This document shows, in pieces, positions 14,001-24,690 of a DNA stretch of 35,489 nt (positions are counted from its first letter, which is position 1; every line of letters starts with the position of its first letter). Source of the DNA: a virus; the IMG/VR virus record IMGVR_UViG_3300044710_000155, positions 1 through 35,489 of that record; one strand, written 5' to 3'. Under the pieces are notes generated by a model that was not told the origin of the DNA, searched no databases, and saw only the letters and a list, made by a program, of their open reading frames with translations. The translations under genes and the position numbers were made by a program.

Positions 14001-14168
14001 ACAAAGCGCGGTGTTCTGTGGGGTCTGTGGGTAGGTTGGAAGATCGTCCGATGGCATCGGCCTTAGTCCACAATGCCATGGGTCTTAATCTGGTGATCAA
14101 AGAACGACGTCGTTATGGGCCGCTGACGTGGACAAGCGAAGCAAACTCATACGAAACTCGTAAGACTT

Positions 14169-14197
14169 TGTTACAATCGGAAAACCGGATTGTAACA
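14169..14197. repeat. Perfect 10-bp inverted repeat, operator-like
   Basis: TGTTACAATC (14169-14178) and GATTGTAACA (14188-14197) are perfect complements separated by 9 nt. In DNA this is the size of a dimeric repressor operator; in RNA it would form a hairpin. It lies upstream of the AT-rich promoter tract and the HTH gene at 14384. Confidence 0.5.
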
Positions 14198-14224
14198 CGT
14201 ACTTATCGGGTAAAACCGAGGATA

Positions 14225-14340
14225 AAGACACTTACTGTTACTGTTATTTACTTTTAACTTATATAGGATAGAATTAGAAGAAAATAATAAATAGTAATAG
14301 TAATATATATAGACATACTATTTGTCATATTATAATTGGC
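14225..14340. other. AT-rich tract, possible DNA-unwinding element
   Basis: About 115 bp that is overwhelmingly A and T (for example long TAATAG and ATATATA runs) inside an otherwise GC-rich genome. Together with the iterated sites at 13739-14000 it has the makings of a replication origin, where the AT-rich part melts first. It also contains promoter-like sequence, so a simple promoter region is the alternative. No clear DnaA box (TTATNCACA) was seen. Confidence 0.45.
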
Positions 14341-14352
14341 CAGCATATGCTG
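14310..14352 (+). promoter_or_regulatory. Strong promoter-like site with palindrome at the start point
   Basis: TAGACA (14310-14315, 5/6 match to -35) and TATAAT (14331-14336, perfect -10) are separated by 15 nt, slightly short of ideal. The perfect palindrome CAGCATATGCTG (14341-14352) lies at the expected transcription start, the position of a repressor operator. It drives towards the HTH-like gene at 14384, suggesting autoregulation (inference). Confidence 0.5.
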
Positions 14353-14383
14353 TGCAGCTGTAACAGCATTCAGGGTCATACCG

Positions 14384-14947
14384 ATGGATACCGAACTCAT
14401 CCTTGTGCTGCAAGCGGTTGTTGCGGCCTTGCCTGCGAGTAAAAGAAAACTGCCCCAGGCACTTCTAAGCACTTACGTGCAAAAAGACCCCGCCATCGCT
14501 AATTCCTTGGGGTTAGGTGCAGAGGAAAAGAAGGAACCAACCGGCCCAGATTTTTTAGTGTGGTCGTCTGGTAAACCCGCTGAAAAGCTGCGAGGCTGGA
14601 GTCAGCTGCACCAGCGGCTTGGTGTCAGCGCCAATACGCTGCGTGTCTATATCAGCCAGGGGCAAGGCGCGTTCGCCAAGCTGGCAGGAAACGTCACAGG
14701 TATTCCTGAGCCCGTGCTGGTGCACAGGACTGACGCCACACTAGGGGCCATTGCTTTGGCCAGGCATGATTATGAGTTGGCCAAGCTTAGACTGCAGCGC
14801 CGCATTGAACGTACTAATAGAAAGGAACGCCGCGCCCCCGATGGCTCAACAGCAGAAGGCTTGCCCGGCCCCGCGCCCAACAGAATGCCGCGTACCGAAG
14901 CCAAGCTGGCCCCCGACCCCACACCCAAGCGCAGTCGGCGCTTTTAA
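14384..14947 (+). CDS. Putative HTH DNA-binding regulator
   Basis: 187 aa. ATG at 14384 with a weak AGGG site about 9 nt upstream. The central 'GWSQLHQRLGVSANTLRVYISQG' (about residues 68-90) has a helix-turn-helix layout with a 'GVSANTLRVYI' recognition helix; the C-terminal 45 residues are basic and Pro-rich and probably disordered. It is the first gene after the control region and has a palindrome at its putative start point, consistent with a self-regulated early regulator or a replication initiator. The family is not recognised. Confidence 0.62.
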   Translation: MDTELILVLQAVVAALPASKRKLPQALLSTYVQKDPAIANSLGLGAEEKKEPTGPDFLVWSSGKPAEKLRGWSQLHQRLGVSANTLRVYISQGQGAFAKLAGNVTGIPEPVLVHRTDATLGAIALARHDYELAKLRLQRRIERTNRKERRAPDGSTAEGLPGPAPNRMPRTEAKLAPDPTPKRSRRF

Positions 14948-21910: not shown

Positions 21911-22137
21911 CCGACCTGGAGATCGTGGAATTGGCACTGCGGCGCGCGGCGCGCAACCTGCGCGGGGCCGAAAACCCCGTACAATCATGCATCGCCGCGG
22001 CCATCGAAGATATTGCTTCGGAATTGAGGAATTTGCGCGACGCTCCGCGTGATCGTGAGCCCGGCCAAACACCCAGCCGGCAAGAAATTGCTGATGAAAT
22101 AGAACTTCAAGCTGAGTTGGAGCGGCTGCGACCTTAA
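21907..22137 (+). CDS. Small helical acidic protein
   Basis: 76 aa; ATG overlaps the previous stop. Helices with heptad-like hydrophobics (LEIVELALRRAARNLRG, AAIEDIASELRNLRD, ADEIELQAELERLRP). No family recognised. It is the last gene before the structured non-coding interval. Confidence 0.62.
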   Translation: MTDLEIVELALRRAARNLRGAENPVQSCIAAAIEDIASELRNLRDAPRDREPGQTPSRQEIADEIELQAELERLRP

Positions 22138-22150
22138 CCTGACATTAATC

Positions 22151-22332
22151 GGGGCGTGCCACAAACGGCACCCCTTGCACCCGACCGCTCGGTGCGGTTA
22201 AGGTGCAGCCTTGCCACCCGGCGCGCGCCCTTTGGCGTTCAAGCGCCCCCTACGTCACTCTCCTCGTGGGGAGCGCACGCAGAGGAACCGCGGCGGCGGC
22301 CAGCCTTGCACAGCTGGGTCGCGCCGGGTGGC
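22151..22332 (+). ncRNA. Candidate structured RNA / leader upstream of replication genes
   Basis: Interval 22138-22375 has no convincing gene but dense complementarity. Hairpin 1: GTGCC/GGCAC (22156-22160 with 22167-22171) with flanking GGG/CCC around a bulged C. Hairpin 2: TGCACC/GGTGCA (22176-22181 with 22202-22207) enclosing ACCGC-TCGGT-GCGGT (22184-22198). Large element: GCCACCCGGCGCG (22213-22225) pairs perfectly over 13 bp with CGCGCCGGGTGGC (22320-22332), and three short hairpins sit inside it: GGCG/CGCC around TTCAAG (about 22234-22247), CTCTCC/GGGGAG around TCGT (about 22259-22274), and CCAGC/GCTGG (about 22299-22316). This cruciform-like layout suggests a noncoding RNA or riboregulatory leader. 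It is not a tRNA by length or T-arm. Downstream is a G-rich stretch and a GTG gene. Confidence 0.45.
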
Positions 22333-22375
22333 ATCTCCGCGGGGGCGGGGGTGCAGATTTGAGGGGAGCAGGTAA

Positions 22376-22561
22376 GTGGTCAAGCAAGCAGAAAATCGTA
22401 ATGCTGCGCAGGTTCTGACACAGAACCGCAATCCGAATTGTCCCCTGTGCCATGGCACGGGTATCATGAAAGCCCGCGCAGGGCGGGAAGCCCAAAACGG
22501 GCATAACGATACCTACATAAACGACCCCTACCCATGTAGTTGCGAGCCGCCCGCGCGCTAG
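22376..22561 (+). CDS. DnaJ-type zinc-finger small protein
   Basis: 61 aa with a GTG start after a G-rich ribosome-site region (GAGGGGAGCAGGTAA). 'CPLCHGTGIMKARAG' has the CxxCxGxG module of DnaJ zinc fingers, and CSCE near the C-terminus supplies further Cys. Only one DnaJ-type repeat is present, so it would be a miniature zinc-binding protein. Function unknown; its 3' end runs up to 11 nt before the primase-helicase start. Confidence 0.66.
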   Translation: MVKQAENRNAAQVLTQNRNPNCPLCHGTGIMKARAGREAQNGHNDTYINDPYPCSCEPPAR

Positions 22562-22572
22562 GGCGCCGGCAG

Positions 22573-24690
22573 ATGCCCCGTGGCAACGGCCACGCCCCCC
22601 GCCTTGGCGACCCCAGCCTGTACAGCCTGGTGGTGGAAAAGCTGGCTACCAGCGGCCTGACGGCAGAGCACGGCCAGTCGCTGGGTGTGGCGGGTCTAAG
22701 CGCCGCCACGGTAGCCCAGCTGGAATTCGTAGAAGCCCCGGCCATGAAAATACCCTATTGGGACCCGTGGACCGGTGAGGCTTTGGCTGGCTGGCCCAAG
22801 GCACCGCCTTTCTACCGCCTGCGCTATCTGCAGCACGTGGTGGACGTCAAGCAGCTGCTGAAGTCTGGCAAGCCCAAGCCCCTGCGCTACGTGCAGCCGA
22901 CCGGGTCTGCACCATGTGCCTACTACCCGCGCATACCTGATTGCGACTGGCCCGCCATCCTCGGCGGCACCATGGATTTGCTGATAACTGAAGGTGAGCT
23001 GAAGGCGGCCAAGGCGGTGGCGGAGCGTTACCCCTGCATCGGCCTGGGTGGGGTGTGGAACTGGCGGGCGCACGAGCAAGGCATAGTGTTTCTACGCGAC
23101 TTAGAGCAGGTCAACTGGGTGGGGCGTCGCGTGTACGTGGTATTTGATTCAGACTGCTGGACCAACCCAGATATCCTGCGCGCCCTGGCCGCGTTCGGCG
23201 ACCAGCTGGTGCAGCGCGGCGCCCGGCCGTATACAATCGTACTGCCGCAGGAGGGCGACGCCAAGGTGGGGCTGGACGACTTTCTGATCGCCCACGGCAC
23301 CCTGGGCCTTGAGAACTTGATGGATTCTGCAGAGCCCTACACTTTGGCCAACGCCCTGTGGGATCTTAATGCCCGCGTGGCGTACGTGCAGGATCCTGGG
23401 TTGGTGGTGGAGCTGGGCACGGGGTTGAAGATGGCCCCCGGTGCGTTCAAGGACCACGCCTACGCCGCGGAGACATACCTGGAGCGCACCCTTACCATAG
23501 GCGGCAAGACGCGTCTGGAACCCGTCAGCGCGGCCGGGGCGTGGCTGCGCTGGCCGCTGCGCGGCGCGGTGCGGCAAATTACCTACGCCCCCGGCCACGG
23601 CCAGTATATAGACCGCGCAGATGGCACCAAGGACTATAACGGCTGGCGCGGGTGGGGCGTGCAGCCCGCCAAGGGGGACGTCAAGCCATTCTTGAAACTC
23701 GTGAAGCACCTTTTTACCGAGAGTGAAGAAGGAGCCATGGAGTGGTTCCTCAGCTGGTTGGCTTACCCGCTGCAGAACCCCGGCGTTAAGATGTACAGCG
23801 CGGTGGTGATGCACGGCCGCCATCGCGGCACCGGCAAATCCATGATCGGTGAGCTGATGGGGCGCATATATGGCGAGAACTACATAATGATCGAGCAGTC
23901 CCATCTGCATGGCAACTTCAACAGCTGGGCCTATAACAAGCAATTCATCATGGGCGATGAGATCAGTGGCAGCGACAAGCGTGCCGATGCCGACCTGCTG
24001 AAGAATATGATAACGCGGGAGACGATGCAGGTCAACATCAAGAACGTGCCGGAGTTCGTGGTACCCGACGTCATCAACTACTATTGGGTCAGCAACCACC
24101 CGGACGCGTTTTTCATGGACGACAAGGAGCGGCGCTACTTCGTGAACGACGTGCGCGTGCCGCCGCTGGACCTGGATTTCTACATGAAATTCCGAGAGTA
24201 CAAGGCTGGCGACGCCGGGCCGGCTGCCGTCTTCCAGTACCTGCTGGACTACAGCTGCCGAGGGTTTGACCCGCACGGCAAGGCATTCCTCACCCGCGCT
24301 AAGGGGCGCATGGTGCGTGCGACGCAATCAGACGCGCAGACGTGGATCGCCCATGTACTGGAGGACCCCGAAACCATGCTGCGCGTGGGTAACACGATAT
24401 TGAAGCACGACCTGTACACGAGCCGCGAGGCGCTGGCGCTGTACGACCCGGCCGGCCGCACAAAGCTGACGCCGCAGGGCATGTCCCGTGAGTTGGTGCG
24501 GGCGGGCATCTACCATGTCAATGGCGGCGACCCGGTGCGGGTGGGCGACCGTACAGACAGGTACTTCCCCCTGCGCACGCCGGAGACGTGGTACAAGGCG
24601 ACTGTCAAGCATATTCAGGAACACCTGGAGGGCCACAAGCTGGAGATGCCCAAGGGCACGGTGAGGACAACGACAAGGAAGAGGTTCTGA
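22573..24690 (+). CDS. TOPRIM primase / SF3-type helicase fusion (DUF3854 + DUF5906-like)
   Basis: 705 aa from ATG 22573 (an in-frame TTG at 22540 has no ribosome site). N-terminal part carries a TOPRIM-type domain in DUF3854 style: 'LLITEGELKAAKA' (Glu about 140), 'VYVVFDSDCWTNP' (about 187-199, DxD), 'GLDDF' (about 233-237). C-terminal half resembles DUF5906/D5-like primase-helicases: Walker A 'GRHRGTGKS' (about 415-423), Walker B-like 'GDE' (about 461-463), 'YYWVSNHPDAFFMDDKERRYF' (about 503-523; Arg sensors). Replicates DNA at the fork: primer synthesis and unwinding. Start of the rightward replication cluster. Confidence 0.88.
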   Translation: MPRGNGHAPRLGDPSLYSLVVEKLATSGLTAEHGQSLGVAGLSAATVAQLEFVEAPAMKIPYWDPWTGEALAGWPKAPPFYRLRYLQHVVDVKQLLKSGKPKPLRYVQPTGSAPCAYYPRIPDCDWPAILGGTMDLLITEGELKAAKAVAERYPCIGLGGVWNWRAHEQGIVFLRDLEQVNWVGRRVYVVFDSDCWTNPDILRALAAFGDQLVQRGARPYTIVLPQEGDAKVGLDDFLIAHGTLGLENLMDSAEPYTLANALWDLNARVAYVQDPGLVVELGTGLKMAPGAFKDHAYAAETYLERTLTIGGKTRLEPVSAAGAWLRWPLRGAVRQITYAPGHGQYIDRADGTKDYNGWRGWGVQPAKGDVKPFLKLVKHLFTESEEGAMEWFLSWLAYPLQNPGVKMYSAVVMHGRHRGTGKSMIGELMGRIYGENYIMIEQSHLHGNFNSWAYNKQFIMGDEISGSDKRADADLLKNMITRETMQVNIKNVPEFVVPDVINYYWVSNHPDAFFMDDKERRYFVNDVRVPPLDLDFYMKFREYKAGDAGPAAVFQYLLDYSCRGFDPHGKAFLTRAKGRMVRATQSDAQTWIAHVLEDPETMLRVGNTILKHDLYTSREALALYDPAGRTKLTPQGMSRELVRAGIYHVNGGDPVRVGDRTDRYFPLRTPETWYKATVKHIQEHLEGHKLEMPKGTVRTTTRKRF

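Follow-up and report, generated by a model that had tools for sequence, protein, structure and literature searches.

The C4 RNA of phages P1/P7 and the CI RNA of P4, the latter of which controls a primase operon, are leader-encoded RNAs in which one strand complements both a ribosome-binding region and a second site. In ribosomal-protein leaders such as those of S15 and the alpha operon, a pseudoknot at the ribosome-binding site controls the operon, while HK022 put consists of two stem-loops that act on RNA polymerase. To our knowledge, structured RNAs controlling phage DNA-replication genes are described mainly from T4-like phages, along with a few satellites or temperate phages. The replication proteins of T4 genes 32 and 43 repress their own messages, and in the gene 32 operator of T4 and RB69 a pseudoknot of ~28 nt nucleates gp32 on an unstructured binding site (PMC535899, PMC3014915).

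Here, we describe an RNA element upstream of the replication operon in the window, the whole 35489-base stretch of a virus record that was analysed. By analogy, the element would work most like the T4 gene 32/43 operators or the C4/CI antisense RNAs. Like the gene 32 operator of T4/RB69, it is associated with a phage replication gene, has a putative pseudoknot 5' of the Shine-Dalgarno sequence and keeps its structure while its sequence diverges (PMC535899, PMC3014915). Unlike that operator, it is built on a stem of ~12 bp (P1) that closes a loop of 50-95 nt, and the RNA is itself complementary to the Shine-Dalgarno sequence. The likeness to C4 and CI lies in a leader RNA whose strand is complementary to the ribosome-binding region and to a second site, but the present element has no Rfam match, a long P1 and two downstream GCUGRG hairpins, and a search of 26 of the phage records gave no integrase. 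It would function like the pseudoknots at the ribosome-binding sites of the S15 and alpha operon leaders, from which it differs in genes, sequence and architecture. As with HK022 put, a structured phage RNA would open an early transcript, whereas the Shine-Dalgarno pairing is distinctive here.

The first-pass annotation, made from the sequence alone, could assign the structure to no known RNA class, and a search of the stretch against Rfam 15 gives no credible match: no family is matched at gathering or permissive thresholds, RF01695 (C4) included. Since no Rfam family matches, and the likeness to T4 operators or C4/CI is one of working, the element is a new RNA class among phage leader regulators, a family absent from Rfam 15. 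A literature search, mostly confined to papers outside paywalls, returned no description of it, and the passages on phages in a 2010 survey of candidate structured RNAs do not describe it (PMC2864571).

The stem and its surroundings in the window

A small ORF that ends at 22137 precedes the element, and a 61-aa ORF with CxxC motifs (GTG start at 22376) follows it; next come a primase-helicase gene (DUF3854 + DUF5906) and, further on, DNA polymerase, exonuclease and helicase genes. The 3' end of P1 is 239 nt from the primase start. The features of the locus are as follows.

22151..22207, + strand: two small upstream hairpins (predicted fold), not conserved in relatives
22191..22204, + strand: weak promoter-like -10 region, with TAAGGT 7 bases before P1 and TTGCAC 18 bases further upstream; in the family register, weak
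22212..22225, + strand: P1 5' arm TGCCACCCGGCGCG, 14 bp perfect and unique in the window; P1 covaries in 41 relatives; expected transcript start
22250..22266, + strand: P1-loop strand CTACGTCACTCTCCTCG from the model alignment, resembling CTACGTCACCTCCTCAGC of relative L018; its part 22258-22266 is complementary to the Shine-Dalgarno region
22262..22272, + strand: alternative pseudoknot strand CCTCGTGGGGA, with 11 pairs (3 G-U) to 22334-22344
22320..22333, + strand: P1 3' arm, pairing with 22212-22225
22334..22344, + strand: partner TCTCCGCGGGG of the alternative pseudoknot, pairing with 22262-22272
22360..22368, + strand: Shine-Dalgarno region TGAGGGGAG of the next ORF, with 9 pairs to 22258-22266 (duplex -13.3 kcal/mol)
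22376..22561, + strand: 61-aa ORF with CxxC motifs, first after the element; weak DUF6300 similarity, below cut-off
22573..24690, + strand: primase-helicase (DUF3854 + DUF5906), the gene after the element in relatives

The long-range stem, first annotated as 13 bp (22213-22225 with 22320-22332), is present and comprises 14 perfect base pairs, 22212-22225 with 22320-22333, closing a 94-nt loop. It is the top perfect stem when loops of 40-110 nt are searched across the full 35,489-nt window, where the runner-up has 11 bp; in 12 dinucleotide shuffles of the window, the longest comparable stem reaches only 10-11 bp. The predicted plus-strand fold of the 182-nt stretch has a free energy of -109 kcal/mol, whereas shuffled sequences average -87.6 (z -4.6); on the minus strand z is -4.8, and on neither strand does any of 200 shuffles fold better.

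The unit originally proposed, two hairpins followed by a stem closing three more, is not the one that relatives conserve. The conserved unit extends from the start of P1 to the Shine-Dalgarno sequence of the next gene, about 22212-22378, beyond the 3' limit first drawn. The two upstream hairpins are present in the predicted fold but fall outside this unit and have no place in the family plan, and the three inner hairpins belong to the minimum-energy fold of the single sequence but, in the window's own copy, have no comparative support. The description of the interval as non-coding holds: ORFs cross it mechanically, but in relatives the pairing persists although the sequences are unrelated and the loops differ in length, and the element contains no conserved coding gene. 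A tRNA/tmRNA search found none, and a DNA-similarity search of the element itself among phages gave no useful match. A hammerhead-like reading of CUGAGGA, made by eye, was rejected, as the motif varies (CUGAGGG) and a matching core is absent after it. Elsewhere in the window, positions 14001-14500 are AT-rich (43.6% GC against 60% for the genome) and lie near the switch from leftward structural to rightward replication genes, making them a candidate control region or origin.

Recurrence upstream of related primases

Primase homology led to three phage genomes, AXL3, PW916 and ctUtU524, and an alignment of five primases led to 80 loci on viral contigs and ten on bacterial genome contigs. Most of these loci carry a long-range stem before the primase, with an entirely different sequence. 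A common plan was anchored on this stem and on a shared motif, CTCAGC. From 5' to 3', it comprises a promoter, the P1 5' arm, a hairpin, a strand ending CCTCAGCAAG, the P1 3' arm, CACCTTT, hairpins P3 and P4, the Shine-Dalgarno sequence and the start codon; the P3 loop is GCTGAG or GCTGGG, and the P4 loop contains GCTGRGG. Covariance models R1 (from 16 close members), R2 and R3 were built iteratively and place the element at 41 loci besides the window, upstream of the same DUF3854/DUF5906 primase. These loci have in common a P1 of ~12 bp and the hairpin P3, and part of their P1 loop is complementary to sequence further downstream; P1 loops measure 50-95 nt across the family. At every locus found, the element precedes the replication operon, the position first noted in the window; in L018 and the window, it leads into the start codon preceding that of the primase.

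Covariation in these homologues is overwhelming for P1 and P3. The model alignment leans towards structure, so a 16-member MAFFT alignment, which is not fitted to a model, is the fairer test. In this set, two-sided changes occur in 9/12 P1 pairs and all five outer P3 pairs, and the covariation score is 0.452 against 0.186 for shuffled and 0.05-0.10 for slid alignments. In the model alignment (n=41), two-sided changes occur at 18/18 pairs (P1 12/12), 95.7% of P1 cells are paired, and the score for P1 and P3 is 0.859 against 0.193 shuffled, a value reached in 0/500 shuffles, and 0.07-0.14 slid. P3 stems come to 14.9 against 9.7 (sd 3.4) in shuffled flanks, and P4 stems to 13.3 against 8.8 (sd 3.8). 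In P1, under a selection favouring neither, G-U (G-T) pairs outnumber A-C mismatches 21:6, and in the model alignment 40:1. A DNA hairpin would lack such a bias and is rejected on this ground; the element acts as plus-strand RNA.

In 32/39 members, P1 is preceded by a promoter-like sequence with the end of its -10 element 5-7 nt away, and 24 of these also have a -35 element, TTTACA/G. In this sigma-70-like register, the transcript would begin at the first base of P1. The window offers only a weak match, though in the family register. In many relatives, a small gene lies directly upstream of this promoter (L016:1866-2252, L019:1283-1678 and L034:1910-2257, and also in L018, L030, L037 and L052). 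Its product ends in xDDxIxVQRL or similar, has a helix-turn-helix-like stretch resembling EAAxxxKKTPATLxxxLSKGxGxY and finds no significant match in Pfam; the gene could encode a regulator.

Among 38 whole records, 25 carry the element, with one credible copy each; two records show a second match at E 0.04-0.05. On the primase tree, carriers of the element group together (11 changes, compared with 19.3 when shuffled, 0/500), as expected if descent is largely vertical and some lineages have lost the element or carry variants that escape detection. The element is absent around the more distant primases of M6 and DLP4 (Mesyanzhinovviridae). The RNA recurs in dozens of distantly related phages, including many environmental ones and the sequenced AXL3, PW916 and ctUtU524. 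Its shape is kept despite sequence change, and it is probably a built-in control of replication-protein timing, which makes for a concrete, testable claim on when replication genes are expressed. Annotators could now recognise a non-coding gene that is currently left blank.

Pairing with the Shine-Dalgarno region and proposed function

The P1 loop was compared with the 24 nt before the next gene's start codon in 33 representatives. Loop and site from the same phage score a mean of 19.0 against 14.6 (sd 2.9) for swapped pairs, which is equalled in 0/20000 permutations. The strongest pairings cover the Shine-Dalgarno sequence, with 13 bp in L066, 12 in L058, 10 in L059 and L043, and 9 in L018, L037 and L041; the pairing of the window, 22258-22266 with 22360-22368 before the GTG at 22376, ranks 3 of 33. 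In L012, L046, L053 and L056, this test gives no clear Shine-Dalgarno match. In minimum-energy folds, a long anti-Shine-Dalgarno helix replaces P1 in the L011 and L018 leaders, indicating that two competing states exist, while the leaders of the window, L066 and L030 keep P1; the folding program does not model pseudoknots. The Shine-Dalgarno helix may thus join P1 and P3/P4 in a pseudoknot or may alternate with them; either way, the natural reading is translation control of the first replication gene.

On the computed structure, RNA strand, promoter register, own-phage Shine-Dalgarno match and location, the element is probably a structured 5' leader RNA that controls translation of the first gene of the replication operon by pairing at its ribosome-binding site. 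The first base of P1 would be the transcription start. This stem, which spans about one helical turn, would form co-transcriptionally, and its loop would present the strand that complements the ribosome-binding site of the operon's first gene, usually the primase and in the window the small CxxC gene just before it. Pairing of this strand with the Shine-Dalgarno sequence, whether in a pseudoknot spanning P1 or in a long helix that competes with P1, would block the start of translation; with the strand held elsewhere, for example by competing hairpins P2-P4 or a bound phage protein, translation would proceed. We infer that the pairing represses translation and that the repression is switched. 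By analogy with T4 genes 32 and 43, the switch may be a phage replication protein acting in autoregulation. The original suggestion of a phage regulatory RNA or riboregulator of replication genes gains support from the covariation, the constant place before the operon and the lack of a conserved coding gene.

The loops of P3 and P4 bear on a more elaborate possibility. Both hairpins have the same GCUGRG loop on variable stems, and both loops are complementary to CUCAGC, with A/G changes that keep a U-G pair, which suggests more than two states. The core CCUCAGC/GCUGRGG hardly varies (33/33 members pair at its six core positions, with only U-A to U-G changes), so that covariation is uninformative on it inside the main group, and the pairs that extend the core do not covary above swapped pairs. 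Divergent members have other complementary pairs at the place of the pseudoknot, TCCTCGGCAG/CTGCCGAGGA in L059 and CAGCAGGTT/AGCCTGCTG in L085. In the window, 22262-22272 with 22334-22344 is the best-scoring P1-plus-pseudoknot pair, above all 60 shuffles, and competes with the anti-Shine-Dalgarno pairing. It is possible, though less likely than not, that the P1-loop strand pairs with either identical GCUGRG loop or with the Shine-Dalgarno sequence. The RNA would then be an unrecorded class of multi-state switch, timing DNA replication in response to a replication protein or to how far replication has advanced.

The P1-loop strand is complementary both to the Shine-Dalgarno sequence of the first gene and to a pair of GCUGRG sites downstream, and this would serve pairing in cis and in trans equally. 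In an antisense RNA like C4 or CI, a putative excised P1 hairpin would bind GCUGRG and the ribosome-binding site on other transcripts of the operon and so halt first translation and then transcription. The P4 target operon likewise encodes a primase-helicase. This alternative is unlikely: RF01695 goes unmatched even permissively, as do all other Rfam families, and P1 exceeds, in length and in strictness of conservation, what a carrier hairpin would require. In addition, a search of 26 of these records gave no integrase of the tyrosine or serine type, which makes lysogenic immunity unlikely and weakens an immunity RNA of that kind as a candidate. A leader that binds protein and has no Shine-Dalgarno control, either a put-like modifier of RNA polymerase or an operator whose GCUGRG loops bind a phage protein, would suit an RNA that begins at the transcription start, as the promoter register places it, and that carries two hairpins with an identical six-base loop on variable stems. 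We consider it improbable, as it leaves unexplained both the own-phage match between P1 loop and Shine-Dalgarno sequence and the CUCAGC strand complementary to both loops. A replication origin element, serving the always adjacent primase as primer RNA or single-strand initiation hairpin, would fit a single-sequence fold that is stable on both strands, but is very improbable given a G-U over A-C bias that marks selection on plus-strand RNA rather than a DNA hairpin and a Shine-Dalgarno match that a primer role leaves unexplained.

Place of the window in the family and variation around the leader

The window shares the architecture of the proposed translation-control leaders of its relatives, with a P1 of 14 bp where ~12 is usual, a loop of 94 nt within the range of 50-95, and a position before the DUF3854/DUF5906 primase operon, and it keeps the anti-Shine-Dalgarno strand. 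R2 and R3, both built without the window, rank the element first in 35 kb, at 17.8 bits (E 0.0043) and 20.5 bits (E 0.001; next match 13.7) with E-values that are rough, and these top matches fall exactly at the site first annotated, upstream of a homologous primase. Its divergence shows in some 54 additional nt that separate the loop strand from the 3' arm of P1 and in the long branch that its primase occupies on the primase tree; no close relative was found, the nearest primases being about 48% identical. Judged from these sequence comparisons, the window copy is very probably a divergent family member.

The family could be real and the window stem an unrelated GC-rich inverted repeat, in keeping with an R1 score of only 4.1 bits and with the absence from the window of a good promoter, of CCUCAGC in the P1 loop and of GCUGRG hairpin loops. 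CUCAGC/GCUGRG is also absent in the divergent L059, L066 and L085, so the motif marks the main group rather than the whole architecture. An unrelated repeat is fairly unlikely in view of the first rank of the site under R2 and R3, a 14-bp stem unequalled in shuffles, and a loop strand that resembles that of L018 and matches the Shine-Dalgarno sequence.

Variation around the leader takes several forms in relatives. A minimal version at L066:2385-2480 consists of a 17-bp P1 and, immediately after it, a 13-bp pairing over the Shine-Dalgarno sequence, without CUCAGC/GCUGRG. An HNH-like gene, read by eye, lies between the RNA and the primase at L013:2013-2468, L025:1962-2468 and L042:1977-2435, an arrangement apparently similar to that of T4 gene 32, which has the homing endonuclease gene segG alongside. 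A near-perfect 24-bp inverted repeat with a 53-nt loop (L031:2274-2375) stands insert-like between P3-like and P4-like parts. L011, L038 and L063 have a second long-range inverted repeat, CTACAGATTATTC/GAATAATCTGTAG, of 13-16 bp with a loop of 70-76, upstream of the RNA and about 285-410 nt before the primase. Finally, L077 carries 17-bp inverted repeats of TGTTACAC direct repeats, iteron-like in appearance, 250-360 nt before its primase.
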